Assembly (NCBI GenBank): GCA_946699065.1
Contig: CAMPDV010000130.1
Span: forward strand, 496,001-560,000
DNA: 64,000 bases
Source: Loxodes magnus
Lineage: Eukaryota > Ciliophora > Karyorelictea > Loxodida > Loxodidae
Direction: 5' to 3'
Shown here: positions 1,891 to 62,003 of the stretch, one piece after another
How the letters are laid out: each line of letters starts with the position of its first letter
Position numbering within the stretch: position 1 is the stretch's first letter
Translations under genes and position numbers: made by a program
The notes under the pieces: model-generated
What the model was told of the DNA's origin: nothing
Seen by the model: the letters and a program-made list of their open reading frames with translations, nothing else
Databases searched by the model: none

Positions 1891-2424
1891 ATGGGAAGCT
1901 TATTAGAAACTTTTTGCATAAATTGTGGAGACAAAAAAAATTTAAACTAATTGAATAATAGTTTTTCAGATTAAATAAAAACGATAGCTTTTGTTGGTCC
2001 TTAGAAATCCGGTAAATCTAGTATTATTTATTACCTAAAAAATAAATAAATTAAAAAAACTTATTAAAAAACGGAAGCAATTGAATAAACATTGATTGAA
2101 TTTTAAGGATATCAGTATGAACTAAAAGAATTACCAAACTAACTTTTTAAAATAAAGCCAGATGCCTTTGTATATGTCTATGATTCTTAGACTGGTTAAA
2201 ATTATTTAGAACTAAATTAATTTCTCAGTAACATTGATAAAAGAATTCCTGTTTTACTTTTCATAAATAAATGTGACTTAGTAGAGATTTCAGTTGATAT
2301 AAGACAAATAAACTTTGGAAAAGATATGAAATATAATATTTTAAATAGCAATAATAAGGGAGAAGGAGTAGAAGAAGGATTTTAATGGCTTAACCAAGTG
2401 TTTAATCCTAGAATGCTTAACTGA
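1891..2424 (+). CDS. ARF-like small GTPase, divergent (177 aa)
   Basis: Reads as one frame with UAA/UAG as Gln and a UGA end. The start MGS plus Cys9 suggests N-myristoylation after Met removal and possible acylation, as in ARF-family G proteins at membranes. The P-loop GPQKSGKSS lies at residues 36-44 and NKCD at 126-129; the C-terminal EGFQWL resembles the ARF GLDWL helix. The switch II motif WDVGGQ of true ARFs is replaced by ELKELPN, so the catalytic Gln and the usual Gly pair are missing; hydrolysis may be weak or GAP use unusual (inference). It is the outlying member of the family repeated at 9828, 14759, 19681 and 24029, sharing KSGKSSIIYYLKNKQ-like sequence with them. It may act as a lipid-anchored nucleotide sensor. 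The family call is good; the cellular role is unknown. Confidence 0.85.
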
Positions 2425-9827: not shown

Positions 9828-10325
9828 ATGGGAGCGAAATGTTGTTCGATTCGTGATGAGAAGGATAAAAATGAACCCTTTAAAACTATCGTTTTTATTG
9901 GACCTAAAAAATCGGGTAAAACTAGTATCATTTACTATTTGAAAAACAAATAGATAAAGAAATAATGTGAAGAAACTAAAAATATCCAATAATGCCCATT
10001 TGAGTTTTAAGAAAAAAAATATGAGTTAAAAGATGTTCCGTCTTATAATGATTAAGTTAAAGCTGATGCTTGGGTATACGTTATGGATAACAACAATCCT
10101 TAGTAAGTTTAGGAATTGAATGAGTTCTTAAAAAACTAAGATGAAAAGACTCCAGTTCTTCTTTTAAAGAACAAAAATGACTTATCTGGATAAGCATAAC
10201 AAGTTGATGAATCCAGAATATAATGGGGTAATGTATAAAATTATAAAATATTAAAGACCAGCAATAATGGAGAAAAAGTAGAGATGGGATTTGAATGGTT
10301 GCATCAAGAATTATGCAAAAATTGA
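9828..10325 (+). CDS. ARF-like small GTPase, repeat copy 1 (165 aa)
   Basis: One open frame with UAA/UAG as Gln, ending on UGA. The start MGAKCC has the Gly2 of a myristoylation site and a Cys pair suited to palmitoylation, so membrane anchoring is likely. P-loop GPKKSGKTS at residues 25-33; guanine-specificity motif NKND at 115-118; C-terminal GFEWLHQEL resembles the last ARF helix. Switch II is DVPSYND instead of DVGGQ, so the residue that positions catalytic water in ARFs is absent. Trp is TGG here. Compared with the other copies it has CPFEFQEKKYEL in the middle, shared with copy 3, and ELNEF, shared with copy 4. It is oriented away from the minus-strand gene at 8818-9490. The antisense frame at 10081-10335 is a shadow. 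Confidence 0.85.
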
Positions 10326-14758: not shown

Positions 14759-15256
14759 ATGGGAGCGAATTGTTGTTCGATTCGTGATGGGAAGGATTAA
14801 AATGAACCCTTTAAAACTATCGTTTTTATTGGACCTAAAAAATCGGGTAAAACTAGTATCATTTACTATTTGAAAAACAAATAGATAAAGAGATCTTATG
14901 AAGAAACTAAAAATATCATATAAGACTCATTTGAGTTTTAAGGAAAAAAATATGAGTTAAAAGATGTTCCGTCTTATAGTGATTAAGTTAAAGCTGATGC
15001 TTGGGTATACGTTATGGATAACAACAATCCTTAGTAAGTTTAGGAATTGAATGATTTCTTAAAAAACTAAGATGAAAAGACTCCAGTTCTTCTTTTAAAG
15101 AACAAAAATGACTTATCTGGATAAGCATAACAAGTTGAAGAATCCAGAATATAATGGGGAAAAGTATAAAATAATAAAATATTAAAGACCAGCAATAATG
15201 GAGAAAAAGTAGAGATGGGATTTGAATGGTTGCATCAAGAATTATGCAAAAATTGA
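14759..15256 (+). CDS. ARF-like small GTPase, repeat copy 2 (165 aa)
   Basis: Same gene as at 9828, starting MGANCC and ending ELCKN then UGA. P-loop GPKKSGKTS, NKND and the altered switch II (DVPSYSD) are all kept. It differs from copy 1 at many residues clustered in the first two thirds: GKDQ near residue 11, KRSYEET instead of KKQCEET, IIQDSFEFQG instead of IQQCPFEFQE, and EESRIQWGKVQNN. Some of these variants are shared with copy 4, others are unique, giving a patchwork. The frame is intact, so the copy is probably functional. Role and anchoring as for copy 1. Confidence 0.85.
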
Positions 15257-16381: not shown

Positions 16382-16542
16382 AAAATTCCTAAATTCTCAA
16401 TGAGCCAATGGAAATAGATCAATAACCTGTAACAAAAGATTTTCTAGTTAAAGAGTTAAGATTGCTGAAATTGTAAGCGGGTAGGAAATAAATAAGGATA
16501 TTGCTAGCAATTTAAGCAAAAAGAAAAGAGAATAAATAAATT

Positions 16543-17033: not shown

Positions 17034-17066
17034 AAAAATATATATATAATTTATAATTAATTATAG

Positions 17067-19680: not shown

Positions 19681-20175
19681 ATGGGAGCGGAATGTTGTTC
19701 GATTCGTGAGAAGGATAAAAATGAACCCTTTAAAACTATCGTTTTTATTGGACCTAAAAAATCGGGTAAAACTAGTATCATTTACTTTTTGAAAAACAAG
19801 TAGATGAAGAAATAATGTGAAGAAACTAAAAATATCCAATAATGCCCATTTGAGTTTTAAGAAAAAAAATATGAGTTAAAAGATGTTCCGTCTTATAATG
19901 ATTAAGTTAAAGCTGATGCTTGGGTATACGTTATGGATAACAACAATCCTTAGTAAGTTTAGGAATTGAATGATTTCTTAAAAAACTAAGATGGAAAGAC
20001 TCCAGTTCTTCTTTTAAAGAACAAAAATGACTTATCTGGATAAGCATAACAAGTTGATGAATCCAAAATATAATGGGGAAAAGTATAAAATTATAAAACA
20101 TATGATACCAGCAATAATGGAGAAAAAGTAGAGATGGGATTTGAATGGTTGCATCAAGAATTATGCAAAAAATGA
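19681..20175 (+). CDS. ARF-like small GTPase, repeat copy 3 (164 aa)
   Basis: Starts MGAECCSIREKD, one codon shorter in the N-terminal linker than copies 1 and 2, and ends on UGA. P-loop GPKKSGKTS, NKND and DVPSYND are kept. It shares YFLKNKQMKKQC with copy 4 but CPFEFQEKKYEL with copy 1. It has a private NYKTYDTSNN where the others have ILKTSNN. The frame is intact. The mix of shared blocks suggests gene conversion among copies. N-terminal Gly2 and the Cys pair again predict lipid anchoring. Confidence 0.85.
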
Positions 20176-20425
20176 ACAAAAACAATTTATTTAAATCATC
20201 ATTTCTTAATTAAAATAAAAAATAATATTAATTCAAGATATAAAAATTGAAAAATTATTTTTATACAAAAACTTAATAATTTTTATATAATTATTTGAAT
20301 TTGAAATATATTTTAAAAAATTTATTGTAGAAAATTTAAGGGATTCACTAGACAGAATAGATCGTAAGAGAAATTTAAGATATTAGAAAATTAAACCATA
20401 AAAATCTTAATACAAATACAAAATT

Positions 20426-21304
20426 AAATGCTTGATGTTCTTGAAGGTATTTCAACCTTTTTACCGCCAGCCTCATGATTGCTCCAGAGGCTAAATATAA
20501 AAGTTTTAATGTCTCTACAACTCTTCTCCTTGATATGCAAACTGCCACTTAGTTATCCTTTCGCCTAGATAAGGATTGACATCTTTGATTTTTTATATTT
20601 TTCCAAATTTGTTGTAATATAATCTTTCTCTTTTCTGTTTTAGTTGTTGCTGAATCTTCTTTTTATTCTCCAACTTATTTTTGTAGTTTCAGTATTCTTA
20701 TTTAAAGTTTTGAAATTTCTAGCATCTTTTCCGTAGATGCATTCGAGTTTCTTTTTGCTTCTCGCTTAAATCTTGGGTTATTTTTTCCTTCGATTATCAT
20801 TGGGTCATTTCCTTGTTCTTGTAAATCCATTTATGTTATCTTTTACTGTTTTTCTTCTATTATTTCTATTTTGTTGATTAGTTCTTTCTGCTTCTATTGT
20901 TACTGTTATGACTAATTGTTCTGGTCTTGTGAAATATTTAAAAATGCATTAAGGTCTCTTTTGTAAATCATGAGTCTTTATTCTATTTCCTCTGCAAGTT
21001 CAAGCTTTCCATCAGTCTATTATTATCTTTCTTCTGCTTTTGACCTCTTCCTGGAGGTCAAGCACCACTTTTATCAGGTATTCATAGCTTATTTACTGCT
21101 CTATGGTGAGATTCGAGACTTCCGACCGTATAATACTTTTAGCATATTTCCTTGGCTTTTTCTTCAGAAGTAGGAGAATCAATTTGATGGTTGATCCTTT
21201 TTATTCCGATTTCCTGATCCTAGTCTCTCTAGGATATCGTTAACTTCTGCCTTTTTGGAGCCGCGAAAAATCCTGATTTGAATCCTGGGATAATTTTTAT
21301 CCAT
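20426..21304 (-). mobile_element. ORF1-only LINE-like element a, unit 3
   Basis: Copy of 10572-11450 at the same place in the unit. Broken remnant. Confidence 0.65.
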
Positions 21305-21466
21305 AAAATTCCTAAATTCTCAATGAGCCAATGGAAATAGATCAATAACCTGTAACAAAAGATTTTCTAGTTAAAGAGTTAAGATTGCTGAAATTGTAAG
21401 CGGGTAGGAAATAAATAAGGATATTGCTAGCAATTTAAGCAAAAAGAAAAGAGAATAAATAAATTT

Positions 21467-21958
21467 GATTATAGAGCGCGTAGCACTCTCGTTGGTGCGC
21501 AGTTCTTTAAAAAATGTTTCATACTGACAAGAATGTTTGTTACTGATAAAATTATCAGATACTGGTAGACCTTGTTCAATACTGGTATAATTATTCAGTA
21601 CTGATAAAAATGTTCAATACTGATATAATTTTACAATACTCGTAATCTTTAATACTTGCTGGAGGTCCAAGGACATGGCAGGATTGTGTCTCATTGCATC
21701 ACCAAAGCAGAGGACGACATGTGTCAATTATGGGTACTTAAATTCCCCACCTCTGATGAAGCTCGCAATATTATTTCTTTTTCGTTCCACAATCAAAAAT
21801 AAATTATGCCAAGACAGTGTCGAAGGTCTAAGAATCTTATTTCTCGAGGCCAAGCTAAAGCAGAGGAAGACATAAAGTCGATTATGGGTACTTAACTTCC
21901 CCAACCTCTGATGAAGATGACCTTGTTGTTCACCTTCGAACAACTATGGCGGTTTTAA
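21467..21958 (-). repeat. SINE-like retroposon, family C, unit 3
   Basis: Copy of 11608-12096 with the common 3' box at the left end. Confidence 0.6.
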
Positions 21959-21990
21959 AAAATATATATATAATTTATAATTAATTATAG

Positions 21991-22640
21991 TGATCCCATC
22001 TATCAATAAGGTTCGTCACTTTTTAAAGTTTAATAGTTTTGTTAAAATTTCCATTTCCAGTCTTCTTCTGGGTCTTCTTCTTGAAGCACATATCTATCTG
22101 TGCTATGTTCTCCCTTTTTTATTTTCATAATCTTGCTTCAATCAATCTTCATTCCAAGCATTTGTTCATTTCTTCTTTGTCCTGCTATAATCACGTCTTC
22201 TAGAATTTCATATCCTGCGTATATCTTTCTTCTATAAATTCTTCCTTCCGCAATGCAATATAGTTTACTTATGGTTCTTCATAGCTTTAAATTTTCTGCT
22301 TTCTGTTTTTATTGGAATTAGAAACAGTTTCTAACTTTGTGTCCTGGTCTCTTGCAGTATCAGCATCGCAGTATTTTCCTATAGGGAATATCTTTTATTG
22401 CAGGCTGTTTCTTCACATCCATAGGATCATTCCCCTGTATATTTTGCAAAAATATGCTTTCAGTTAGTTCTGCGAATTAGTCGAATTTTTTCTCTAGCTC
22501 TTCTATTTTGTTGTTTCCTGTCTATTTATTTTCATTTTTCATTTATTCTTATTAATTGTACATCAGGTGCTCTATTTTTCTTTCTAGTTCTTGAACTGTT
22601 CTTAGGAGGTTGAAATTTTCTTATTACAGCAATTGGAGTG
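21991..22640 (-). mobile_element. ORF1-only LINE-like element b, unit 3
   Basis: Copy of 12131-12785, including the CCHC knuckle coding segment. Remnant. Confidence 0.55.
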
Positions 22641-24028
22641 CTTAAAATATATTTTATTGCTCGTAAGATGAATCCTTTTGAGAAGAGGTTTTTTACAAGA
22701 AGTTTTCCATTTTTTATATAGTAAAAATAAATTGGAAATATATTTAAAATATAATGCTCTCAAAAAGGTTTGCTTTGAAGGAAAAAATTACTTGAAGTCG
22801 ATAATGAAGCCTCTCATATTTGGAAAACAGTTAATTATCTCATTAAAAAATGTTTGGAATTTCTCTAAAAGAAAAAATCATGAAAGTAATCTTAAAATAA
22901 TCAAAACTTATGACAGTGAAGATCTTAGCAAGTTTAAAGTAAATATTTTTTAATAATAAACTCATAAAATAAATGCTTATATGAGATAATTATAACAAGA
23001 TAAATGTTCATTAAAAGCTATTTTTATATTTTAACTTTTCCATATTTTTTACATAAAACGTATTTTAAATTAAATAGTTAGCAATAATCTTATTTATTTC
23101 ATTTAATATTTCAATAATTAAAAGATATTAATAATTATAATTTCCTAAATTTTAACTATACTTCTTAAATATAAAATGTTCTACACAAACTAAAAGTAAA
23201 TAATTAATGAAATTGAACTCATATTTTAACTTTTAGTCTAATCTTTATAAATATTTTAGAATAACTCACTAAAATTTCCTATAAAATATAAGCATAATTA
23301 TTTTAAATACTTATTATATATTTAATCTATTAGATACATATTTAGTAAAATTATAATATGCTTTTAGTTTTAAAGTGATATTTATAACTAATTATTTAAA
23401 ATAACTTAACAGATTACTTTTAATTTTTAATTATAAATTATTGCAAAAATAAAAATATTTTTTTAAATAAAAAAAAGTTATTCTTTCAATGCTAATGCAA
23501 TGTAATTATTAAGAATAATAATTTAGCTAAGAAAAAAAATGGAAAGCAAGTAAAAGAAAATTGAAGTAAAGAAAGTCAGGAAGTGTTCACAAAAAAATTA
23601 TGACTTTAATAAGATAAAATTTTTTATTTTAATTCAAAAATTCAAAATTGTTAAATTTTCTTATATCATTAAAAAATCTAAAACTATTTCTTAAAACATA
23701 ATATTATTTTTCTTAATAAATAAGATGCTAAAATTAACTTCTTTAAAACTATTTGTCTTTAAATATATTTTTAAAACATCTCAATGATATCTTGCTTTCA
23801 ATTTTATTAAAATTAAAGTTTTTAAATTTTTATATTGATCTAGCAAAAAAATTATTATTCTTGTAATTTAAATAATTTTCTTTGTTTTATGTCTTTTTTT
23901 TTCAATTTCATCTCATTAAAATGATAAAATAAAATGTTGGTTTTATCTTAAATGTTTATTTCTTTTTCTGAATTTAAATTTCTTTATAATTTTTAAATTT
24001 AATTAAAAAATAAATATTAAAATAAAAT
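22641..24028. other. Unit 3 right part and junction to the lone GTPase copy
   Basis: Copy of 12786-14060 up to about 23921 (unclear open stretch at 22668-22953). About 100 bp of unique AT-rich sequence then leads into the GTPase at 24029. Confidence 0.5.
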
Positions 24029-24514
24029 ATGGGAGGAGAGTGCTGTGGTCGTGATTAGAAAAATTTAGAAAAAACTATCGTTTTTATTGGGCCTACAAAA
24101 TCAGGTAAAACTAGTATCATTTACTTTTTGAAAAACAAGTAGATGAAGAAATAATGTGAAGAAACTAAAAATATCCAATAAGACTCATTTGAGTTTTAAG
24201 GAAAAAAATATGAGTTAAAAGATGTTCCGTCTTATAATGATTAAGTTAAAGCTGATGCTTGGGTATACGTTATGGATAACAACAATCCTTAGTAAGTTTA
24301 GGAATTGAATGAGTTCTTAAAAAACTAAGATGAAAAGACTCCAGTTCTTCTTTTAAAGAACAAAAATGACTTATCTGGATAAGCATAACAAGTTGATGAA
24401 TCCAAAATATAATGGGGAAAAGTATAAAATTATAAAATATTAAAGACCAGCAATAATGGAGAAAAAGTAGAGATGGGATTTGAATGGTTGCATCAAGAAT
24501 TATGCAAAAATTGA
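24029..24514 (+). CDS. ARF-like small GTPase, copy 4 outside the repeat (161 aa)
   Basis: Starts MGGECCGRDQKN, with an N-terminal linker different from the unit copies, and ends ELCKN then UGA. P-loop GPTKSGKTS, NKND and DVPSYND are present; the last two thirds are almost the same as the unit copies. The 5' flank differs from the units, while the first ~25 bases of 3' flank match copy 3. So the homology is largely limited to the gene: it is an older duplicate since homogenised, or a gene-conversion partner. Trp is TGG. The antisense frame at 24270-24524 is a shadow. Confidence 0.85.
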
Positions 24515-26540
24515 ACAAAAACAATTTATTTAAATCATCATTTCTTAATTTAAAGTTTATAATATATGTTCTAAGATAAAAAACTGAGCATAATTAGATT
24601 TTCTTTAAAATTTTAATACATTACATGATTATTTATGAAATTATTTATTTTAAGGTTAAAAATTAAGAAATATATTTAATAGTTGAATGTTTTTTTAATT
24701 TATTTTAAGCTGAAATTCTATACAAAATAAACGAAGCTTTTTCTTAAAAATAATTTAAAATGAAATTATACTATTTAATATATAATTTCTTTTTCTTTTT
24801 CTTAGATTATTAAATTTTAATATTTTATAATTTGTATTTTTTCTAATTTTCGTACTTTAAATTTTAAATTTTAAGTATGAATTTTCTTAATTGTAATTTC
24901 CTCAACAATAAGATAAATTTATTTATTTTTAAGTCGATTAAATAACTAGAATTAAATTTCTTATTTTTCTTTTTAACTTAATAAGAATTTTCCTTTTATT
25001 ACTTGTCATTCAAATAATAAAAATCGAAAATAAAATATATAAAATTCTCTTCATTGCTATTTTTCAAGTTTAACACAAAAACTATTCTAAAATTGAATTT
25101 CTATTTTGTTAGTACCAAAATATATCAACTTAAAAGATAAATTTATTATAATCATATAAAATATCTTCTTTAATCTGGAATAAATTATCTTGTCTGCTTG
25201 TATTTCTTAAGAAAAATATTAATACTCTAGCATTCTTATTACTTTATATAAATAAAGCATTCTTTATTTTAACTCATTCAATAATGGTTTTTTACTATTT
25301 TTTCAAATTGAATCTTCTTTATTGAAAATCCTTTTAATTAAAACGTCTATCTAAATTCAAATGAAGACATATTTTTTAATTTTTTCTTATTTATTTAGTT
25401 TGAAGTTTGAAGTTCTATTTCTAAAAATTTATTTTCAATTTTTTATCTTATTCAAAAATTTAGAATCACACTCTATTCATTTTTTGCTATAATTATAGAT
25501 GTTAAAAAATAGAATTAATACCAATTTTTCTAATAAACTAAATAAAAAGCGATACATTAATTATTAAGAATATAGATGCCTAGTTATTTCTAAATTTGCT
25601 TTAATTTATTAAAAGCTATTTAAAAAGATTGGGGAATTTGGAGCCAAATAGATACATAGTTTTGAGTAAAATCTAAAATTTTTTGACTATAAATATAAAA
25701 TTTTTAAGATAAATAGGCTAAAAATCATTTTTATTCGTTCATTTTAAGTTTGGCTCTGTAAACATATATAACTCTTTGGCAAAGCTTTAAAAATATCATA
25801 AGAAAAAAATTAATTTTTTTTCTAACTTTATTCGAAAAAGATCAATCATGACTGAAGCATCAATATATTAAATCTTTTAAGATCCAATAACCTATCAAAA
25901 CTATCTTTTCTGAACACAGAACTTGAATTTATTCAAGTTTACTGAGATTTTAGCCTCTAAACGATTGAACACAGTTCTACTTAGGTTTTTAAACTTCAAT
26001 AAAGCAAAATTAATAAACCTATTTAATCTAAAATAAATCTTAAAATTTCTAAATATTTATAAATAAATAAAAAAATTAAAGGGTTTATTTTTATATTTTA
26101 TCTCTTCCAAACTAATTTATTTATAGTGAATTATTAGTGAGATAAAAAACAAAAATTTTAATTTTCTATTTTGATAATTTTGATAAATTTTTAATAACTA
26201 AATTAAAAAAAAAAGTAAAAAAGCCCTTAAATATAATAATTAATTTACGCTCCTTGATAAAATTTAATATATTAATTTTATGAAATTTCTTAACCTATGA
26301 TAAATAAAAAGATATATAATCTAATTTTAAAGAACGGATTATTAATAAAATCCATATAATTAATTTCTTCTATTTAGAACTAACTTTTTCTTTTATCTTT
26401 TTATAACTTTTATAGTATGATTTAGATTTAGTTGTAAATTTAAGTTTGTACTAAAATATTAAAAATTGTTTGTTATAGCACAAATAAAAACGCAAATAAA
26501 ATTAAAATAGATCGACTATAGTAAGTGTTGTTAACAAGTC
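24515..26540. other. Long AT-rich spacer
   Basis: Mostly low complexity. A stretch around 25840-26000 is less AT-biased and open on both strands (plus-strand MTEASIYQIFQDPITYQ), but no strand could be preferred and no domain is visible. Confidence 0.4.
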
Positions 26541-31783: not shown

Positions 31784-33720
31784 ATGGAAAGAAAAATGAT
31801 GAAACTTATGATAATTTCGGTATTAGTATTCTTTTTAATGATTTTTTTCACTTTTTATTTATGGATAAACTGAAATAAATAAAGCTATATTAATTAGATT
31901 ATAATAAACCAAAAATAAAGAGAAAAGATTTAGGATTTAAAAATAGAAGATAGTGAACTAGGATATGGAGTTTAAGTATTAAATGGAGATAAGTATTCAG
32001 GAAATATTTTTGAGGGATAAAAATAAGGTATGGGAACTTTATGATTTGCAAATGGAGATATTTATATAGGAGATTTTTCTAAAAATTAAAAACATGGATA
32101 CGGCTCTTATACTTATAAAAATGGAGATAAATTCGAAGGTTATTATGTTCAAGATTTAAAAGAAGGAAATGGAAACTTTTCTTATGCTAATGGAGATAAA
32201 TATTTTGGAGAATATGTAAAAGATAAAAAGTAAGGAAAGGGAATTTTTATTTATAGAAACGGAGATAAATATGAGGGAGAATTTTTGCTTGATAAATTTC
32301 ATGGATATGGAATTTAATTATATAATAATAATAATAATAATATACTTAAAGTTAGTAGAGTTTTGCATTCTCTGGAATTGCAACCAGTTCCTGCGGACAG
32401 CTTTTTTAACGTGGGTGTGATCCACGACCTTTTTATTAAGTGGAAGGTTACCACTGTAACCGTTCAAGTGGTCTTGCAAAAAGCTTTTATTTGTAGATCC
32501 CTGTTGGAGTTATTCATAGTTTATTGAGTTATCTCCATGTTCTTTTCTGCTCTTATTCGTTTATTTTCTTTCACTATCAACAGTTTTTTAAAATATGTTG
32601 ATTTGATTTGCAACATCAACAAAGTTTGTATTATTGTCTTTATTTCGTTCTTTTTTATGATAATTTATTTTCTATATTTTCTAATCTTTTAATGAAACTT
32701 GTAGCAATCATTTCTTTTTCTGGATTCAATTCTGTTTTTAATTCTATTGGTATTTTTTCTATTTCCATTTTTGTGTCGTATTTAAAATTTTATTATGATT
32801 AAGTTCAGAGTTATTCTTCCGTTATTAATTTGCTACAAATAAGTTATCTTCTAAGTATTAGTAATTCGTTGTTCTAATCTTCTATATTACTCATTAGTTC
32901 CCGTATTTTTTCGCCTAAGTTGTAAGTTGTTTCTTCATAATTTGAGATTACTTTTTACATTTGGTCTAATTAAATTTAAAGTTTTTGATTAGTTTCGTTT
33001 TTAGGTTAACTTATCTCTATTTATCCTACCATAACTTTACCTTCTGAAGAAGAGCTTGACTCCTCCTATTGTTATTATTTTTTCTAAATTTCTTTTGCCG
33101 CTTTTCTCTTTAGGTTTCTAAGTTAATTTTTTGAGAGTCGAAGAGATTAATCCATTTTATTAATTAATTGAATTTAATTATATATAGATGGAAGTATATA
33201 TGAAGGAAGATGGATGTAAGGATTAAAGTTTGGTAAAGGAAGATTTAATTTTTCAAATGAAGGTATATATGAGGGTGATTTTTTACTAGATAAAAGGCAT
33301 GGAAATGGAAAAATGAAATACAAAAACGGAGATTATTATGATGGATAATGAGAAGAAGATTAAAGACATGGAAAAGGAAAATTAAAAACTTTAGAGTGAG
33401 ATAGATACGAAGGATAATTTCATTAAAATAAAAAGCACGGATACGGTGTTTTTAAATATAAAAATGGAGATAGATTTGAAGGATATTTTGTAAAAGATTT
33501 AAAATAAGGCGAAGGAGTTGAATTAAAAAATGATATGAAGATATATTAAGGAGAGTATTAGAATAACTCAAGATTTGGAAAAGGAATTTAATTTATTTAA
33601 TAAATAGGAAAGCATGAAGGAATTTGAGTTGGTAAAAACTTTACTGGCAAGGTTAAGTTTACTGATATTTAAGGAAAGGTAGAAATTTTAAACTTTGATC
33701 AAGACTTCTAAGGATAATAA
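31784..33720 (+). CDS. MORN-repeat membrane protein gene split by an insertion
   Basis: The N-terminus has one hydrophobic segment (about residues 9-28, ISVLVFFLMIFFTFYLW), so it is likely membrane-anchored. Five MORN repeats follow (for example GDKFEGYYVQDLKEGNGNF) up to 32324. Six more MORN repeats continue at 33170-33600 (for example IYEGDFLLDKRHGNGKM). MORN proteins bind lipids or scaffold the cell cortex. The two parts are separated by an 845-bp minus-strand ORF1-only element flanked by the 15-bp duplication GAATTTAATTATATA (32310-32324 and 33170-33184). The empty site reads straight through. In-frame UGA falls at positions where MORN repeats favour Trp or aromatics (GTLWF, GQWEED). After about 33720 no in-frame UGA occurs before the next retroposon, so the C-terminus is unresolved. 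As it stands the gene is interrupted unless the element is removed. Confidence 0.8.
32325..33169 (-). mobile_element. ORF1-only LINE-like element inside the MORN gene
   Basis: Minus strand. It encodes a CCHC knuckle CWCCKSNQHILKNC near 32600 after a coiled-coil-like region. The 3' end (left) has stem-loops, including CTGG-TTGCAATT-CCAG, and then a TTA microsatellite. A 15-bp target duplication flanks it. The single-ORF layout without reverse transcriptase and the long variable target duplication indicate LINE-type retroposition supplied in trans. It appears broken at protein level. Confidence 0.75.
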
Positions 33721-33942
33721 AACAAGAATAAAAACATAATTAAAATAAATTTAAAATCAAAATATTTTTAAACTTAGAATTAAAATTTTTATAGTAACAA
33801 TATAAATTAATTAAAATAATATTTAACTCAAAGTTTTAACTAATTTTATTTTAATAATTAATAGAAAATAAAAATAAAATTATTAAAAACTTAGCTAAGA
33901 AATTTATTTTTCCTATTTCTTTAATTTTATTAAAAAAATAAG

Positions 33943-35341: not shown

Positions 35342-36271
35342 TCAGATAAGGGATTGTTTTCTTAATAGTTTCCTACTCCCTATCCAACTGATAGGTACTT
35401 GAACTCTTGGTGGTCTGTTCCTCCAGTCACTTTCAAGTCTTCGCAGTGGATTACTCCGAATATTGCTCTTCTTCCTATAAATATTCCCACTGCTAGTTGG
35501 GTAGAATTAGGTTAGTTCGTTTCAAATTTTCTTCTGGATCTCTTTTCTTTATCTGCATTTCCTTCAGAGATGGTTTATTCTTCCACAGATAAAGCATTTT
35601 TTCTTAAAGTATCTTTCTTTAATTAATTCGATTTGTTTATTCTAGACCTCTTCCAACTCCATTGGAACGGAGTGTGCTGTCTAGACCTTGATATCATTCT
35701 TGATATTCTCCATTTTAAGGTTAATATTGCTTTCAATTTTCTCTAACTTGATGTGCATGTTCTCGTTCATATCATATAGCTATTCCAACTGCCTGTCGAA
35801 TTCGTCAATTCGAATATTCATGGCAGCTTAGTTTTTGTTTCTAGGAGCATGCATCTCCTCGTCGTCCAGGTGTCATTGTTGTTCTTGGGCAAGCTCCATA
35901 ATCTATTTCTCTAGGTCTTAGTTATGGCTAATTAACGGTATAATTAATTTAGCCATTTCCTCTTTAGCCATTCCGAGTATTTGTTCCTTGTCTATCTCAC
36001 CGAGGTCCATATATGGTGAGAAGTTCCGAATTTGCATCTGAAAGTCGCTTATCTTCTGCTTCTTTGGAAGATTTTCCGTTGAGGTAGTAGCATGGCTATG
36101 CTTCTGAGGCTGTCTGGGAGGAGTTGTTTAGAGTTATTTTTAGGTCTTCTGGGGAGAATGTTATTATTAGAGGGTCTAGGTTTGGGTTTTAGTCTTTAGA
36201 ACTTCCTGTTTCCTCTCCTCCTTTTAGACTTTGGAGGAGGTGGTGTAGAAGCCTTTCTTAAGACCTTCCAT
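35342..36271 (-). CDS. ORF1 protein of an ORF1-only LINE-like element, frame looks whole (309 aa)
   Basis: A single frame runs from an ATGGAAGG start to UGA with UAA/UAG as Gln and two internal UGA read as Trp. The N-terminal ~70 residues are basic and Thr/Gln-rich. A coiled-coil-like acidic region follows (about 95-230, for example MDLGEIDKEQILGMAKEEM). Then comes a CCHC knuckle, CFICGRINHLWRKC, near residue 245, and a basic tail with GNIYRKKSN. LINE ORF1 proteins of this type bind the element RNA. No reverse transcriptase follows. GC content and codon use are richer than in host genes nearby. It is the best-preserved ORF1 in the window along with 51971-52741. Confidence 0.7.
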
Positions 36272-37477: not shown

Positions 37478-39925
37478 TCATTTTGATTTTAGGAGGATTT
37501 CCATGTACTATCCTCCTTTTTCTAATCCCATTGATACAAGCTCTCCTTTATTGAATTTTTCATTCATATTAAAGTAATATGGACTTAGAAAATGGCCGCA
37601 TACTCCTGTGTCAATGGCGAATAAGCTATCTTTCCACATATTTCCAGGAGAAAGCACCATCTTGTAATTTTAACCCCAAACACCACGAAAATTTCTATTT
37701 CCTTTTCAATCGAATTCGCTAAATTAGACACAAGCATCATCACAACCCTCAACTTTACTCTCTCTATTAAATAAAGATTTAATTAATGGAATCTTGTTCA
37801 TTTCCCTATGAATATAAGTGTTTATGTGTAAATCCCCTCATTTCTTAGAGGACTGATTTTCTAAATAATGTAATGCTTATTCCAATGCATTTAGTAATAA
37901 AGTTACACAATCTCCTTAGCATCACTTCGTAGTATTATAAATTCCTTTTTTTTCTAATATTTCTTCGACTGTCTAATTCCAGAAATGTTAGACAAATATT
38001 TTGTACTATAATGATCTTGAAACTCTTTCAAAAAGATCAGGATGATCTTTTAGATCTACTAACATAAAGCTCATAGTTTTTTAATACCAAGCAGTAAATA
38101 AAGAAGCTTCAATGCTGTCATAAGACATTTGGTAATTCCATTTTTGCAGAAGACTAATAACTTTATTGTATTTTTCTTTAAGAGTTACATTTGCAAGAAT
38201 TCCTAACATAGTATTTAAGTTATAACGAGCTAGCATGTTGTAATTGTCCATTTATAGTTCAATCATATCTTTTACTGTTACTGTTTTACTTTGTAGTCAT
38301 CTTTCTATCACTTCTTCTATTCTTTCCAATCTATTTGAAGGCCTACTAAATACATTAATTCTTGCAAAAAGATTATCTGTAATTTCAGGAGGAGTAATCA
38401 AGTTATTAGCACTGACTAAATAACCTCTTTTAGGATTTATAATCTGGGGCATTCTTTCAACTTCTATAAATCCATTTCAGTCAGTCTCTATTTTAGTACC
38501 ATCTTATACTCTGCTTTATTAATTAATTTTTACTTTACGTTTTGGAATCTTCCCTATCGCTTAATATCCTATATCATCTTCGTCTGAAAAAAAGAGGAAA
38601 TTTATGGCAGGACCAATAAAATTAGCAGCGCCTTACTATGCTTATTTTATACTTTTTGCTTTAAGTAACTCTCACTATGCCTCCATTTACTTATCTTTAG
38701 GTATTTCAAATCTTACTCATCTCAAGCTGATTGCTTTATCTTATATATCAGGAGAGAATCTATTTGTGAGTTAAATAGTCTTCGAAAATTCATTTATTAG
38801 AGGTCCATAAACAGTAGTTTTAACTTTATGAACTACATCTGACTTGAAGCGAACTTTTATCTTTTCTTCTGTAACATTTAAAGAAACCCAAGCATTCTCA
38901 TGCCAATACTAATCAGGATTTTCAGGATGCATTTTATGAAGATAAACATCTGTGTTATCACCCCAAGCTATTGTGAAACTTCATCCTACGTGAAAATTAT
39001 GTCCCATAAAAGAAAGTGGACTTCCAGGGAAATTAGCTCCTTGAATATGAAGCGAAGACATATTACAGTCAATTGGATATCATTAAGAAGGCATCATATT
39101 AAGTAAATGAGGATCTGATCCCATTAGAGGCTATCCAGAATATGTGTACTTGCCTGATATTACTCAGTTATTAGAACCATCTATTTATCTTTACTCAGAA
39201 TGTAAAAATAAGCTCTATGGATTTTACGATTCTCCTTGGTCTTCTTTTTATTTTTCTTCTGAATAAGTTGGAAAATCAGAAGTCTTAAGAATAGTTTTGA
39301 GCAGTGGAATTTTTTCTTACAATGACATAGGCAAAATTTCGTCAGTTAGTTTTTCTCCAAGGACTTCAGATAAAGTAGACCTTAACAACTTGATACTTCA
39401 AGAGTAGCTTATTGAAAAATCAAACAGCACATTTAATCCACAAGAATCTATAGGAGATCATTCTTCCCAACTTACGAAGAAAATATCGAATTCAGGAGGT
39501 AAATAATTATTCTTTGCGTAATGGTTAATTCCATCACTATATGCTTGCAAAATCTCTCTTACTTCTTCAGATAACTCCTCTTCACATTTTCTTGCCAGTC
39601 TTGCTAGCTAAACGCTTCTTAAATATTTATCGCTTTCTAATGTCGAAGAGCTGAAAACTTCACTCAAAGTACCTCTATAAGTTCTTCTTAACGATTCTAA
39701 TTACCATAATCTATCTGACCCATGCACATATCCAATAGCGAAAAATCCATCTTTTACAGAATCAGCTTATATATGAGGAATTCCGTACTAATCCCTTAAA
39801 ACTTTAGCATTATAACCGTAAGAATTTAAATAAGTTCCACTATAGCTAGGAATAGAAAAAATAAATTTTAAATAAATAGAAATCAGAGGAATTAATAAAA
39901 ATGTTATAATAGCTAATTTAGCCAT
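37478..39925 (-). CDS. Penicillin acylase-like Ntn hydrolase (815 aa)
   Basis: One uninterrupted frame of 816 codons. It starts MAKLAIITFLLIPLI (signal peptide or anchor) and then reads LRDQYGIPHIQADS, GYVHGSDRLWQLE and VSWEEWSPIDS, classic for the N-terminal half of penicillin/acyl-homoserine-lactone acylases. The self-cleavage site is GSNNW with Ser251 as the new N-terminal nucleophile, followed by SGQPLMGSDPHL, PSQWY, FPGSPLSFMGHN and AWGDNTDVY. The C-terminal half has DWNGFIEVERMPQIINP, SANN and the late GNRNFRGVWGQNY. Length fits the family (about 750-850). Enzymes of this family hydrolyse amide bonds of acylated substrates, usually outside the cell or in vesicles; the substrate here is unknown. 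Trp254, Trp282, Trp315 and the Trp of DWNG are UGA codons, other Trp are UGG, and the gene ends on UGA. It may descend from a bacterial gene but is fully adapted to the host code. Confidence 0.95.
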
Positions 39926-43043: not shown

Positions 43044-43861
43044 AAAAAAAATGGAGTAGTCAATAAGAATGTCTAAGAACTAAGCCAGAAAAATTAGAAA
43101 GAAAACAGTTAAGACTATTAGACAAAAAGAAAAGTTGAACGAATCGAACTCTTCCTCCCAAGGTAAGATTATGGTGGATATTCTGAGAAGGAAGAGTACT
43201 AAACTATAACAGTATTAATAGCAATGGAACAATATTAGCAACTAAATAAAAGAATATCTGACTTTGACGAAATCATATTCAATTGAGGAGCGAGAATTCG
43301 CAATTTTATGAATGAAATTGTAGATTTAAACAACGAAATAATAATATTAAAAAATTAACTTATAGAAAATAAGTTGTAAGTGAACAAGAATTGTATTTAT
43401 AATCTTAGCAAAGCTTTAAGACATAAAATAGAAGGATAATCGAAGATTAATAACCTAATGTTTAACAAAATCGCATGAACAATGAAGAAGGACCAAATTA
43501 AGAAATATTAAAACGAATTGGAATCCTAGAGAATAAAATTCTTCCAAAAAGTAAAGAGTGAACTAAAGTCAAAAGTTGCTTTTATTGCAAATCGAAGCGG
43601 CATTTACTAAAATATTGCAGAGAATGAAGAATACTTATAAAAATGAAAAAAATAAAAGATGAAAGGAAATCAACTGACTTTACATAAACTAATAAGGAGT
43701 TTTACAAGAAGAATCTTTACAAAACCAGAGCACGAAACGTGGACACCATCCACAAGGAAAAAATTGTCATAATATCCATCCACGAAACCAAATGGCAGCA
43801 CGTACCTGGTTGAGATCCCAGGGGAGGCAGAACTTTTTTTATTTTTAGTTTACACATATAT
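43044..43861 (+). mobile_element. ORF1-only LINE-like element with 9-bp target duplication
   Basis: ATACATTTA lies on both sides (43035-43043 and 43862-43870). After an A8 run comes ATGGAGTAG, then a Ser-rich and coiled-coil coding remnant similar to 51971, then the knuckle CFYCKSKRHLLKYC near 43580. The 3' end has the hairpin CCTGG-TTGAGATC-CCAGG and a short TTTAGTTTACACATATATA tail. It appears broken at protein level. Confidence 0.75.
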
Positions 43862-45086: not shown

Positions 45087-47120
45087 ATGTCATCTCATTT
45101 ATGCTTTTTATGTGAAGAGCTGTTTGATACTGATACTAAATTACCTAGAAGACTTGATTGTAACTGTGTTTACTGTGAGTAATGTTTAAAGGTATTCACT
45201 AAATTAAATAAGTTTTATAAATGCTAAATTCATAAGTAGAGAAGTAATAAATTGATTGAGGATCTAGATATAGCTGTTGAATACCTAACAGAAGAAATAG
45301 ATTCAGAAATTAAGTAAACTTAGATCTGTTAAAATCACTAAGAGATATATAAGTTTTACTGCTAAAACGATAACGAAGTAGTATGTGGTGCTTGCACTGT
45401 TACTAGCCATGATGGACATAAATTCATATCTTTAGAATAAAAATTTCAAGAAGCTAAAAGTAAAATGGAAATGGAAATGAAAATCCTTGAAGATTATATG
45501 AATCTAGAACAAAAAATAGAAACTTACAAAACTACTCAATAAACTCTAGGAAGAAAATCAGCATAACTAAGAGAATAAGTTATACAATTCTAAAACTATT
45601 TCTATAAATAATTAAGATAAATATGCTAATTAGAACTGGAAAATTAACTAGAAAATTTCTATAAATTATAGTAAGACAATACTAAAAAGCTAACGTAAAG
45701 TAAAAGCATATAAAAGAAGCTAATTTCATTTAATTAGAAGAATAATACCACTCTTGAAGATTTTTAATAAATAACTTAAGAAATGTAGAGTTTATAGAAT
45801 GAGTATGAACAAAATATCTTAAACAATGAGGGCGAAAATAATTAAAAAAATGACTAAGATAACATTTTCAGTGCTTTTAAAAATAAAATATTTAAATAAT
45901 TTATGTAATAGAACTAAGTAGAAGAAATATAAGCTGAATATCAAGAAAAGTCTATGGATTAAGAATAAGAGCAGCATGCCAACTAGCTTTATTAATAGTT
46001 AGAAAATGCTAGAGTTTAGAATATAAAGTTAAACGATTAGATTTAAAACGCTAATAAAATAACTGAATAGCTTTTTATTTCTTTAAGAGAATTAGAAAAA
46101 ACAAAGGGAGATCTAACATAATAGATAAAGCTGTTAACTGAAAAGATAGAAAAATATTAGTTTAACTAAGAATAAAATGCAGCTGAAAGGAATTCTGATT
46201 AAGAAATCGAATAAGAACGTTAGATTTAATAACAAAACGATAAAGAATTGAAATATTAATATAGTTAACTCCCTTATAATGCATAGTCCATCAAGAGCAG
46301 AAATTTAAATGCTAAAAAAGAATGAACTCATTATATAATATGCTAATATCATAGCAGCAATAAGCTTATTTATAAAATAAGTTCAAAATAGATGTAATTA
46401 TATAGCATTCATATAGAAAAAATTTGACGTAATTATTCTTTTTCTACTTAGATAAGTAATGATCTTTTAGCTCTTGCAGGAGGTGATGGAATCAGAAGAT
46501 ACTAATCAAATATTTTGTTAATACATATGTCTGCAGTTAAGAAATTCAACTTGATTTATCCTAAATTATGAACTTCATTAGTTTACGATAATTGGAGTTA
46601 AGTATACGTCATAAATGGATTTTTACCTTCAACCGGTTATTTAAATAAATGTGAGACATTCAGCATCTAAAATTATAAGTAGAAGGAAATATAAGAGCAT
46701 CCTTATTAAATGGGAAGATCAGGAAATATATATGCATATGATTTTCTTGTAACCTTTGGAGGATATGGAAATAATAGTCAAGACAAAGTTTGCTTTTATG
46801 ATGTAATTGATAACAAATGATTCCAATTTCAAAATTAAATTCCTGCCAGAGCAGATTATTGTTCCGCTATTTTTACTCCTGATATCGAATCAGCTTTTCT
46901 TTTTGATAATTTCGATAGACTATAGTAAACTTTTATTTTTGATCTCTAGCAGTTTTATATCCATGGTGATAAATTTCCCTAATTCTTGCAAACCTAATAC
47001 TATTCTTTCTGTTTCAATGGAATTTATTAAAGCTAGAACTTATATATGTTCCAGACAAATGGATAGGAATTATTCTCTTATAATGTGCAACTAGGGACCT
47101 GGAGAAAGGTAAACATTTGA
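45087..47120 (+). CDS. TRIM-like protein: RING, B-box, coiled coil, Kelch-type C-terminus (677 aa)
   Basis: A single frame of 678 codons ends on UGA. RING-like zinc finger at residues 6-49 (CFLC, CNCVYCEQC, CQIH). B-box at 81-111 (C81, H84, C92, C100, C103, H108, H111; CGACTVTSHDGHKF). Long Gln-rich coiled coil about 115-400. The C-terminal third from about 413 has Kelch-like blades: LALAGGDGIRRY, VTFGGYGNNSQDKVCFYD followed by NKWFQ and IPARADYCSAI, and LGTWRKVNI at the end. The layout matches ubiquitin E3 ligases of the TRIM type, with Kelch as target-binding part; activity is inferred. Several Trp, including NKW of the Kelch blade, are UGA. A paralogue with the same front end lies at 48759 in the same orientation, so the pair arose by tandem duplication and then diverged. 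The frame at 46807-47094 is a shadow. Confidence 0.9.
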
Positions 47121-51700: not shown

Positions 51701-52831
51701 TTTATATTAAACATTAAAGTTCTTAAAGTATATAAAGAGTTAATTAAATTAAAAAACATATTATAAGCAGTTTATATATGAGAATATATTAATACCTTAA
51801 TAAACTTAGATATCCTATATTAATTTTATACCTTTTAATATCTTTTGTTCTATCTTCTTTATTCACTACTTTTTATTCCTTCATTACTATTAATTTAACT
51901 TTTTCCTTTTTTATATTTTATTTGAAAGCTTAAATACTTCATATGAATATTACCATAAATAAAAAAAAAAATGGAATAATCTATTCGCCTTTCCAAAAAC
52001 CAAATTAAGAACGCAAAAAGGAAAGCTGCGAAACTAATGCAGAAACAATAACAAGAAGAAGATAAATCAAGTTCCTCATCTGAAGGAAAAGTTATAATTG
52101 GAACAATAGAGACGAATCCAGTAAAAGTACAAAAATAATCAGAAATCTAAATATAAATTGACTAAATGAAAACAATAATACAAAATTATTAGGAAACAAT
52201 TTACAATCAAGGGGAAAAAATAAGAGAACTAATGAATACTATCGAAGATTAAAACAACGAGCTACTAATAATAAGACGACAATTAATTTAAAATAATTTA
52301 GTCACGGAATAGTAACTATATGAATAATCTCAATCGAATTTTAAGCAAGAACAAAATATGATTATTGAAAAAGTTTCTACATAAACAAACATCCAAGAAA
52401 AATAGAATGACGAAAAGAATAATATAGAATTACTCCAAAGAATCGATTAACTTGAAAAAAAAGTATTTCTGAAGAGATTCAAGAAAAGACCAATCAAAAA
52501 TTGCTATTATTGCAAATCAAAGTGACACTTATTACAAAATTGCGATCAGTGAAGATAAATTTAGATGAAAGAACAACAAAGAACGTTAAGAATGCTTAGC
52601 AGACTCTGAATCACCGAAACGGGAATTTACAAGAAGAAGATATTCGTATAAAAGACAGAAGATTCTCAGTGGTTCCATCCACAAAAAAAAATGGCGTGGT
52701 ATCCATCCACGCTAAAAAAATGGTAGCAAAAACCTGGTTGAAAATCCAGGGAACGCTAAACTTTAATTACTTTTAGTTTACTATATATATATATATATGA
52801 ATATTACCATAATCACTTTTCGTAAATATGA
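48759..52831 (+). CDS. TRIM-like protein: RING, B-box, very long coiled coil; ORF1 element inserted near its end
   Basis: The start MSSHFCALCEQ is a clear paralogue of the 45087 gene: RING-like Cys pairs CALC, CSCVYCEKC, CQVH, then B-box CQQHQDIFKFVC and CGACTITTHQGH. No Kelch part follows. Instead a coiled coil of more than 800 residues runs on, with an internal duplication of about 140 residues (INRLQKELKESQNN / INRLEKELEESQNN; 49781-50040 and 50195-50450). A Trp encoded by UGA in the first copy (IQGW) matches Tyr in the second. From about 51600 there is a hydrophobic segment (FAYICVITSAIILYDLL), then AT-rich hydrophobic sequence. No in-frame UGA occurs before the element at 51959. With the element and one target copy left out, the frame meets UGA at 52829-52831. 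The last ~90 codons before the insertion are weakly supported. Probably a membrane-linked scaffold or E3-like protein. Confidence 0.75.
51959..52794 (+). mobile_element. ORF1-only LINE-like element with 18-bp target duplication, looks whole
   Basis: Flanked by ATATGAATATTACCATAA at 51941-51958 and 52795-52812. It starts with an A-run and ATGGAA. One frame (51971-52741, 256 codons) runs to UGA: basic Ser-rich start, coiled-coil middle, zinc knuckle CYYCKSKWHLLQNC, then GIYKKKIF and a Trp-rich tail ending PG-stop. The stop UGA sits in the loop of the terminal hairpin CCTGG-TTGAAAAT-CCAGG. The element ends in a TTTAGTTTACTATATA-type TA repeat. No reverse transcriptase. This is the clearest defining copy of the family and a young insertion. 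Confidence 0.85.
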
Positions 52832-54226: not shown

Positions 54227-55300
54227 TCAAGCTTCTTCTTGTTCTTTCTCTATTGTATATTTTTATTTATTGTCTTGAATAAATTTGTCTTTTTTTCCTT
54301 CTTGAAACTCTTCTAAAAGCTCATCTTGTAATTAAAACATTTCAATACGCTTTTTTAGTAATTTAGAATGAAAATTTTTGATTAATTTGTCTATTTTAGG
54401 AATTTGATTTTTTGAAAAATGTTTGTTTATATAGTTTTAGTCATAAAGAATTAGTTTTTTCTTGTCTTTTTCTTTAAAAGCTTTATAACTTTCAAGTTAC
54501 TCAATAATGTCTGCATAGTATTAGCAATAAAAAATATGATCAGTTTCATCAAAGTCTTATCCACATAAGCAAATAATGCTATATCTAACGTTAATGTGGC
54601 GATTACTAAGTTCTTATTGAAAATTATAAGAAAAAGTCCTCAGTTTATAAATAGAAATAGTCTCTCTAATATAGTGTTTATTATATTTGGTATAAGTAAT
54701 TTCAGGAAATAAACTTTAATTATTTTCTATTTAGTCTATAATTCTTTTTGCTGTTGGCATAAGTGTATTCCTTGAGAGACATTCCATTTAGAATTTATGT
54801 TTTATTTTTTATTCTGTGAGCTTATAAAAATCCATCTTACTCTAAACATGTGACATGTCAAAATTATGCAAATCGATACATTTCTTTATATGTTTCTAGT
54901 ATGGTAAATTAAATTTAGTGCATTTTTCTAATAGGAAAGCAGTATCTGAGTTAGGATTTTCTTTGCTATATTACATTAATTTTTAATAAAAGGGCATTAA
55001 ATTTTTAGTTGCTATATGTGTAAAAGGAAGCCAATTTAGGTCAATAAAGCATGACTCATTGAATGTGGATTCTTAAGATCTAAACGCCTATCTTGAGATA
55101 AGTCTTTACGATTTTTTTATCTTGTTTTTTATTCCTTTAATTCCAGAAATAGTAACTCACGGAGTAATATCACCTCCATATTCAACTTTATGCAAAATAA
55201 AAGTTCTAAAAAGAGTTTCGAAGCTGAGAGGGGATACTAATCCATATTTAGAAAGTATTGCAGTAGCTTTTTATTTATAATAAATTAAATTATATTTACT
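54227..55300 (-). mobile_element. 5'-truncated LINE: C-terminal part of the reverse-transcriptase protein
   Basis: The minus-strand frame of about 355 codons has no interruption and ends on UGA at 54227-54229. It begins with ILSKYGLVSPLSFETLF and ILHKVEYGGDI, typical of the region after the RT domain of LINE ORF2 (LxxxxVLPxLxYG-like). A C-terminal zinc-finger motif follows, CLCGQDFDETDHIFYC, with the ET..H.F..C pattern of LINE ORF2 proteins, then a charged tail. The RT active site itself is missing, so the copy is truncated at its 5' side, as usual for LINEs. It is the only RT-related sequence in the window and a possible relative of the machinery that moves the ORF1-only elements and SINEs. 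Confidence 0.7.
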
Positions 55301-55339
55301 AAATTAAATTAAAAAGTTTAAATTGGAGTTTATTGAACT

Positions 55340-56236
55340 TGGAGGATTTTCAACCTCGTGTTCACAGGAACCAGTTTGATAACCTGGCTGGAACCAGCTT
55401 CCTTCAGAACTCTTTCTTCAGTCGCCTTGGATTGTGTACCACTTCGGTTTGTAGATTTGACCTCCTGACGGATAAAATTAGTTACAGAATTCACGTCTAA
55501 TCTTATCCTAATATTAGTACTATTATTTTTCTTATTATTTTCTATTCCAGTACTATTATTTAATTAATTTCAATTTCTAACATTGTTTATATTTATGTCC
55601 AGTTTGTTAGCATACAAAGCATCTTGATTTATTTCTAATTCATTTCTTGTCTCGACTCCTCGGTAAATTAATAGCTCCTTCTAAGTCCATTGGATCTTGA
55701 ATTATCCTAACTTTTAATTCCTACTACTGTTGCTACTTGCTGTTCTCTTCAAGCACAGTTGTTCTCTGCTGCAGCAATCCCATTTCCCTGAAGAAAATGT
55801 TTTGATCTCGATCGTAGACTTCCCAGAAGCTTTCTTTCCATTCCTTGAGCTCAGTAACTTGATTTTTTAGAGCCCTACTCTCTAATCGTAGCCTCTTTAC
55901 TTCCTCCTTCAGGTCACCGAATGCGACTAAAATTTATGCCTGTTCTTCCTGGAACTATGGCATCGCAAACTCTCGCACGGCTACTGCTTCTTGCATCTCC
56001 AGCACCTTTCTAGGTCCTTCCTCTTCAGTTGGTGTCATCAGAGTAGCCTTTTGGCGCTTTTGTCCCATCTTTTAGGTTGGTCTGGAAGTTCCTTTTTGAG
56101 TCTATTATTCTTGAAGATTTTGAGAAGAAAATTATTTCTAGGAAGAAGATGCGAGAGTTAAAGATGAGAATTCTTACTTTCTCTCCCCTTTTTAGGAGGC
56201 GGTATAAAAGCCTTTCTTGAACCTTCTACCATTTTT
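55340..56236 (-). mobile_element. ORF1-only LINE-like element next to the LINE fragment
   Basis: Minus strand. The ATGGTAGAAGG start at 56232 opens a short basic piece related to the start of the 35342-36271 ORF. From 56068 another frame gives a well-kept coiled-coil region (LKEEVKRLRLESRALKNQV), the knuckle CFVCQQTGHKYKQC near 55630, and GGQIYKPKW. The left end carries the GAGG-TTGAAAAT-CCTC hairpin. GC-rich compared with flanks. Whether the two frames are joined by splicing or the copy is broken is not known. It lies just upstream of the LINE fragment on the same strand. Confidence 0.7.
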
Positions 56237-57026
56237 ATTCCTGATATTATTTAAATTAAACTATATTAAAAAGATATTTAATTTCTAAGCTTAATTCATA
56301 GCATAATAAATTATAAGAATTATCTGAAAAATATAAATATTTATTATCTTAATTTATATATTTAAAAATTTAATTATTAGCTATATTACTAATTCTTTTT
56401 ATTGGCATTAACCATACTTATTCTTATTTTTTTATACTAAATTTAATATTTATATATAAAATCCAACTCTTTTATAGCTATATTTATTTTCAGTATTAAA
56501 CTCAATGTCTAAAATTTTTAAATAAATGTATAGATAAAATTATTAAAATAAAATATTAATTTTAATTAACTAAATTTGCTTTAATAAAATTGAAGTATTA
56601 GAAACTTAAAAAAAGGTGAACCTTGTTATTATAAAACGTTTAGGTAAATTAAATAAGGAAAATTTATATAACTTATGCATAATTAAACAGATTTAAATTA
56701 AGTATTTAGAAGTACTATTATAACATAATATTTCAGCTGGATTCATTTAAAATTTTTTAAAAGCTTTATATAAACAATAAAACATTTATTTGTTAGTTCT
56801 TCTTTATTTGAAGCATTTCCTTTTTATTTTTACTTTTACTTTGATTTATCTTACTAGCGTTTAATTTATTTCTTTGTTTCAGGAATTATTAATTTATGGA
56901 AAAATAATTTAGAAAAGATTCTTTAAAATTTTCTTATTTTGTTTAAAATGAGATAAAAAGAATTACCAAAATAGTTTTAGATCTGTAGAATAATTTAGTA
57001 AATAAGATGAAATAAAATAATATTTA
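56237..57026. other. AT-rich spacer
   Basis: Nothing recognised. Confidence 0.45.
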
Positions 57027-61390: not shown

Positions 61391-61415
61391 AAAATACTAT
61401 TTTTATCATAAAAAA

Positions 61416-61639: not shown

Positions 61640-61710
61640 GCTCTTATGGTGTAATGGCGAGCACCTTGGACTCTAAATCCAATGATCTGAGTTCGAATCT
61701 CAGTAAGAGC
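61640..61710 (+). tRNA. tRNA-Gln (anticodon CUA), reads UAG as glutamine, unit 1
   Basis: 71-nt cloverleaf: acceptor GCTCTTA/TAAGAGC, D arm GTGT/GCAC, anticodon stem TTGGA/TCCAA with loop CTCTAAA, T arm CTGAG-TTCGAAT-CTCAG. Anticodon CTA pairs with UAG. The sequence around D arm, anticodon arm and T arm resembles ciliate tRNA-Gln, and UAG is glutamine in the genes of this window, so it is the normal glutamine decoder and not a mutant suppressor. A T5 Pol III terminator follows one base after the acceptor stem. Confidence 0.95.
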
Positions 61711-62003
61711 ATTTTTAGAAATATTTCTATATTGTTCTAACCTTATGATCACACTACTTTTTTTTCTTAATAATGTTTAAAATTTAAAAGTCGAAAATTT
61801 ATTTAACATTAAATATTATTTTTTATAACATTTTTTTTGGTAATAAACCTTTTAGAAAACTATGAATTTTACTTTTTTAAACTGAGTTTTTTTCGCTAAG
61901 ATAGCTAAATATTTTAATATATGTATTATAAAAATATTCACCTTTTATAACATTTTTTATTGATTTTAAAACATAACAAAAATACTATTTTTATCATAAA
62001 AAA

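Follow-up and report, generated by a model that had tools for sequence, protein, structure and literature searches.

UGA as both tryptophan codon and stop codon in a 64-kb window best explained by the karyorelict genetic code

Which genetic code applies to a stretch of DNA in which a long coding frame of an enzyme family is crossed by all three of the usual stop codons? The question is raised by a 64-kb window (the whole stretch of DNA analysed here), which is AT-rich (GC 16–32% per 2-kb window) and in which no closed open reading frame of at least 150 amino acids was listed under standard stops (table 11). When UAA, UAG and UGA are read as sense, a single unbroken frame of 815 codons runs on the minus strand from an ATG at 39925 to a UGA at 37478–37480. 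It contains 12 internal UGA, 10 UGG, 24 UAA, 10 UAG, 6 CAA and 2 CAG codons. The first-pass annotation had described a penicillin-acylase-like gene with exactly these limits and had proposed the ambiguous code of karyorelict ciliates. Both the gene and the code are upheld by our analysis; the code matches NCBI table 27, described for Parduczia sp. (PMC4967479) and for karyorelicts including Loxodes magnus (PMC11441545). The features on which the assignment is based are collected in Table 1.

Table 1 Coding, termination and tRNA features of the 64-kb window. Trp values are the tryptophan frequencies of the corresponding columns in the homologues.
Feature	Position	Strand	Details
Penicillin-acylase (PF01804) homologue	37478..39925	-	815 codons + UGA stop; intron not required; 12 internal UGA
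Acylase sense UGA, codon 156	39458..39460	-	Trp 0.97
Acylase sense UGA, codon 176	39398..39400	-	Trp 0.50
Acylase sense UGA, codon 254 (GSNNW)	39164..39166	-	Trp 1.00; three residues past Ser 251
Acylase sense UGA, codon 282 (PSQW)	39080..39082	-	Trp 0.97; no spanning GT..AG of 14-32 nt
Acylase sense UGA, codon 315	38981..38983	-	Trp 1.00
Acylase sense UGA, codon 403	38717..38719	-	Trp 0.97; no spanning GT..AG of 14-32 nt
Acylase sense UGA, codon 483 (DWNG)	38477..38479	-	Trp 1.00; no spanning GT..AG of 14-32 nt
Acylase sense UGA, codon 696	37838..37840	-	Trp 1.00
Acylase stop UGA	37478..37480	-	next codon UAA
B-box/Kelch-like gene	45087..47120	+	677 codons; internal UGA codons 413, 447, 495, 578; stop UGA 47118-47120
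Kelch sense UGA, codon 578 (NKW)	46818..46820	+	weak alignment (E 0.0012) with the Kelch Trp of 9tsn
MORN sense UGA	33349..33351	+	YxGxW position of MORN repeat; aligned to Trp of MORN1 6t6q
Small GTPase-like paralogue	1891..2424	+	stop UGA, UAA in frame 3 codons later; 77/143 residues identical to 9828 copy
Small GTPase (Arf/Ras-like)	9828..10325	+	stop UGA, no in-frame UAA/UAG for 36 codons, UAA at 37; Pfam Arf 7.4e-8
GTPase paralogue	14759..15256	+	stop UGA, no in-frame UAA/UAG for 36 codons, UAA at 37
GTPase paralogue	19681..20175	+	stop UGA, no in-frame UAA/UAG for 46 codons, UAA at 47
GTPase paralogue	24029..24514	+	stop UGA, UAA in frame 13 codons later
tRNA, anticodon CUA	61640..61711	+	Rfam tRNA 68.5 bits; 5-bp anticodon stem; would read UAG
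Further tRNA(CUA) copies	62228-62299, 62816-62887, 63404-63475		

The protein translated from this frame matched the PF01804 profile with 545 bits (E 4e-163) over residues 40–801 and profile positions 2–668 of 675, and by this match it is assigned to the penicillin acylase family as a near full-length predicted homologue. Of 7997 candidates scored in a protein search, 2844 reached E ≤ 1e-3. Among the 120 relatives listed, which were about 30% identical, most carried no name and the names given were bacterial or archaeal only. Scanning genome contigs with the acylase returned 26 loci with bacterial or archaeal titles, which were left out of the later steps, and the scan of viral contigs gave no match. 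It is possible that the gene entered a ciliate by an old transfer and that its tryptophan and glutamine codons were recoded afterwards. The closest solved structures (PDB) were D-succinylase and penicillin G acylases, and Ser 251 of the acylase aligns with residue 1 of the beta chains of its solved relatives. We take this serine to be the N-terminal nucleophile of the beta chain in the penicillin acylase family, and it is presumably catalytic.

The reassigned codons were decoded by masking UAA, UAG and UGA in the acylase and adding this query to the aligned set of 120 listed homologues. The query of the homologue search had been pre-translated with UGA as tryptophan; the decoding step itself was masked and is independent of that. 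The control consisted of the 35 sense codons represented by eight or more sites: 31 decoded to their standard residue, and ATT, AAG, TCA and GAG did not. Eleven of the 12 internal UGA codons were alignable (columns at least half occupied), and their summed log-odds were +36.2 bits for tryptophan versus −4.2 for tyrosine as the next residue and −9.4 for phenylalanine. Seven of these eleven lie on the 17 tryptophan-majority columns (tryptophan frequency at least 0.5) present among 749 query-aligned columns (hypergeometric p 2.4e-10). Codon 176, whose frequency of 0.50 is a rounded value, falls just under the cut and would be the eighth. The remaining ten tryptophan-majority columns hold UGG in four cases and another residue in six (L, F, I, T, F, F), and two further such columns have no query residue. 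The tryptophans of the GSNNW, PSQW and DWNG motifs had been described as UGA-encoded and other tryptophans as UGG; indeed, the three motifs correspond to codons 254, 282 and 483, all of them UGA, and the gene also has its ten UGG codons. Four of the 12 UGA codons (418, 543, 668 and 740) gave no clear tryptophan signal, with log-odds of +0.20, −2.40, −3.36 and +0.95, respectively, the column of codon 543 being sparsely occupied. Selenocysteine or cysteine as the meaning of UGA was rejected, since the residue in these columns is tryptophan and not cysteine. From this comparison with penicillin acylases, which the first-pass annotation had suggested, we conclude that UGA is to be translated as tryptophan inside genes.

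In the same masked alignment, UAA decoded as glutamine (21 sites; Q +2.9 bits, next E −7.7). UAG was undecided when taken by itself (7 sites; K −1.6, Q −3.0 bits), and the pooled UAR codons gave −0.2 bits for glutamine, yet 15 better than the next residue. The CAR codons likewise decoded weakly (8 sites; Q +3.9 versus S +3.2), so that even true glutamine codons are hard to recover here because glutamine is poorly conserved in the acylase alignment. The mean glutamine frequency at the 28 UAR columns was 0.142 versus 0.043 overall (20,000 permutations, p 4e-4). With the best residue for UAA and the enrichment of the pooled columns, the earlier reading of both codons as glutamine is retained, and on the strength of this alignment we assign UAA and UAG to glutamine. 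If UAR is counted as glutamine, 34 of the 42 glutamine codons of the acylase are UAA or UAG, in keeping with the remark that glutamine is mostly encoded this way.

The end of the window, from 61391 to 64000, is occupied by a 588-bp tandem array with five tRNA-Thr(AGU) and four tRNA(CUA) genes in opposite orientation; its four whole units are identical. These two were the only tRNA species found in the window, and a tRNA pattern scan of viral contigs gave no match. The free-energy fold of tRNA(CUA) was not a cloverleaf, though its Rfam score is high (Table 1). This tRNA is presumably charged with glutamine.

Gene ends were accepted only if homology or paralogy fixes their position, which left seven: those of the acylase, the Kelch-like gene and five GTPase copies. 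An eighth, that of the gag-like frame at 35342, was dropped because nothing places it. Codon-usage segmentation and two runs of a small gene finder, which allowed GT..AG introns and could end genes at UGA alone, gave many doubtful short genes and served for choosing frames only. All seven placed ends are UGA. Since the UGA of the acylase is directly followed by UAA, UGA and UAA stops are not separable in that gene alone. In four of the seven (the Kelch-like gene and three near-identical GTPase copies), in-frame UAA and UAG are absent for 29–46 codons past the UGA, which must therefore terminate, provided that the gene ends where the homology ends. For the GTPase at 9828 the Arf profile covers residues 20–161 of the 165-residue protein, so this gene ends where expected. 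The copy at 19681 has a one-base insertion soon past the stop relative to the 9828 copy, and the length differences inside the genes keep the frame as judged by eye. The acylase and the gene at 45087 had both been said to end on UGA, and they do; in the latter, 29 codons free of UAA and UAG lie behind the stop, the first in-frame UAA being 30 codons on and the first UAG 59. We conclude from these placed ends that UGA is to be read as terminator as well. It thus does both jobs, and in the acylase and the Kelch-like gene it does so inside one gene.

The region 9200–24550 consists of a tandem unit of approximately 4.93 kb in three copies and a partial fourth, with a GTPase gene in each. The three full copies carry further open reading frames, one of which weakly resembles a zinc knuckle (E 0.0031, short of the cut-off), and most compared 300-nt blocks of the unit are 91–100% alike, with one family down to 62%.

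Further genes extend the tryptophan assignment beyond the acylase. The Kelch-like gene matched the Pfam B-box (1.7e-10) and, under the cut-off of 25.3 bits, Kelch_6 (22.2 bits, 1.4e-4). Its NKW tryptophan had been claimed to be a UGA codon, and codon 578 does align with a Kelch tryptophan, in a match that is weak (Table 1). The gene also carries UGA codons 413, 447 and 495; its Kelch half, used as the query of a protein search, returned no relatives at E ≤ 1e-3. In a MORN-repeat gene (31784–33800, plus strand), the UGA at 33349 falls on the tryptophan of the repeat and the one at 33397 falls off it; farther downstream, the UGA at 33625 on the plus strand apparently occupies a MORN tryptophan position by eye. 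Past 33625 there is no in-frame UGA until 34147, and UAA codons stand at 33709, 33715 and 33718. The segment 33625–33720 may hold a candidate UAA stop or belong to a dead gene.

This MORN gene is interrupted by an insertion of 845 bp with a direct repeat of 15 bp on its two sides, at 32310 and 33170. One end of the insertion carries TAA repeats and its minus strand a gag-like open reading frame; judged by its sequence, it has the appearance of a recently inserted retroelement. By calculation, the two sides keep the same MORN frame. Related open reading frames lie at 32616–33155 (−), 43051–43813 (+), 51971–52741 (+), 35342–36271 (−) and 54227–56299 (−). Several of the five have a CCHC-like pattern by eye, and they look like first open reading frames of retroelements. 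UGA positions are poorly conserved between these copies. Codon comparison of 12 paralogue pairs was of no help in the decoding: it never showed UGA opposite UGG; outside near-identical copies, UGA mostly faced other residues (retroelement-like frames and the B-box pair), and UAR stood opposite CAR in places and opposite many other residues too.

Two explanations would do away with tryptophan at UGA altogether. If the genes were pseudogenes, UGG could have decayed to UGA by a single transition, and the DNA is AT-rich. We consider this most improbable: an open frame of 815 codons matches nearly the whole family profile with Ser 251 in place, the UAR codons fall non-randomly on glutamine-enriched columns, and the Kelch-like and MORN genes likewise have UGA at a tryptophan position. 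We give next to no credence to the idea that the UGA codons lie in short introns and are spliced out. Nine of the 12 acylase UGAs are spanned by some GT..AG of 14–32 nt, as is frequent anyway in AT-rich DNA, but codons 282, 403 and 483 have no such pair around them. Moreover, six of the eight tryptophan sites (all except 403 and 696) are gap-free in the homologues for five residues on either side, and the conserved residue at these columns is tryptophan itself.

Two others concern which code of this kind is used, and by whom. Condylostoma magnum (table 28) resembles the window in UAR as glutamine, UGA as tryptophan and a context-dependent stop, but there all three codons also terminate (PMC4967479), whereas every placed end of the window is UGA. 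Sense and stop functions for all three codons here, rather than UGA alone as stop, would fit the UAA directly behind the acylase UGA, the three UAA codons in the UGA-free MORN frame and the apparent scarcity of UAA near gene ends described below. This is nevertheless quite unlikely in view of the seven UGA ends, four of which lack a nearby UAA or UAG (three of these being near-identical copies); the MORN gene, split by an insertion, may be dead, and UAG is not scarce near ends. Somewhat less improbable, though still doubtful, is the same code in a lineage other than the karyorelicts, a Plagiopyla-like ciliate or Amoebophrya sp. ex Karlodinium veneficum, since lineages with such a code have been published (PMC10553269; PMC12005148). 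For Plagiopyla a similar dual code is described, but according to PMC10553269 Plagiopyla frontata rarely uses UGA (3 of 240 proteins), whereas the codon is common in the window, and the AT-rich flanks and repeat-rich DNA of the window fit Loxodes (PMC11441545). Amoebophrya shares with the window three stop codons in frame, probably as Gln, Gln and Trp; unlike the window it belongs to a dinoflagellate relative whose gene-ending codon is left open in the part of PMC12005148 used here, and nothing links it to the window. Another known system, the Blastocrithidia nuclear code, likewise has UGA as tryptophan and a dual-use stop codon, but there UAR is glutamate and UAA the sole stop (PMC12153298).

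We are therefore highly confident that the window is nuclear DNA of a ciliate using the karyorelict code, NCBI table 27. No marker genes (rRNA, eRF1) were seen within the 64 kb. The published table 27 systems (Parduczia sp., Loxodes) share with the window UAA and UAG as glutamine, UGA as tryptophan and stop, genes ending on UGA and AT-rich 3' flanks, and apparently also a scarcity of UAA before the stop (PMC4967479, PMC11441545). Loxodes magnus is in addition similar in the GC content of coding sequence and 3'UTR, in repeats and in retrotransposon load (PMC11441545).

How sense and stop are told apart was addressed at the gene ends. No simple motif had been recognised around UGA, and we saw none: comparing by eye only the 16 sense UGAs of the acylase and the Kelch-like gene with five stops, no flank stood out. 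GC content drops from 24–31% in the coding sequence to 9–17% in the following 100 nt (four genes), in line with 33.5 and 18.6% for coding sequence and 3'UTR of Loxodes magnus (PMC11441545). Counting the final 20 codons in each of four distinct genes, we found no UGA (0.4 expected, too few to inform), one UAA versus 4.5 expected (P 0.051) and two UAG versus 1.5 expected. In Loxodes, UGA and UAA are depleted before stops and UAG is not (PMC11441545); the UAA scarcity in the window leans towards this pattern, without proving it. Swart et al. rejected motifs and proposed nearness to the transcript end as the switch (PMC4967479), and following this proposal we regard such nearness as the likely mechanism.

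A mechanism consistent with these data would be as follows. UAA and UAG would be read as glutamine by suppressor-type tRNAs, of which a CUA one is present in the window. UGA would be translated as tryptophan by ribosomes still distant from the 3' end and would become a stop near it, the switch being, as the literature suggests, proximity to a short 3'UTR and the poly(A) tail. By the same literature, eRF1 would compete for UGA with a decoding tRNA-Trp(CCA), the anticodon stem of which may be 4 bp long.

UGA makes up 12 of 22 tryptophan codons in the acylase and 16 of 32 in the acylase, the Kelch-like gene and two distinct GTPases together. In the acylase, 12 of 815 codons (1.5%) are UGA, whereas the published values are 0.120% for Parduczia sp. 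and 0.042% for C. magnum (PMC4967479); few genes enter the figure for the window, and the values compared do not include one for Loxodes. For these reasons we do not claim heavy UGA use as new. There is an outside chance, which we rate as small, that the window comes from a ciliate, perhaps of an unsampled lineage, in which UGA is an ordinary tryptophan codon (about half of all tryptophan) and yet the main stop, UAA perhaps serving now and then as a second one. If true, dual use would lie far above the 0.04–0.12% of Condylostoma and Parduczia, and the model of distance to the 3' end would come under much greater strain.

To summarize, the code itself is rare but already known, and the window is a clear instance of it that adds no new code or principle. 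It provides a demonstration, made from sequence only, of a code without a dedicated stop codon. In the acylase, invariant tryptophan sites are placed on UGA, and one such site is only three residues away from the presumed catalytic serine; this would make the protein a good target for mass spectrometry and ribosome profiling of the discrimination between tryptophan and stop.
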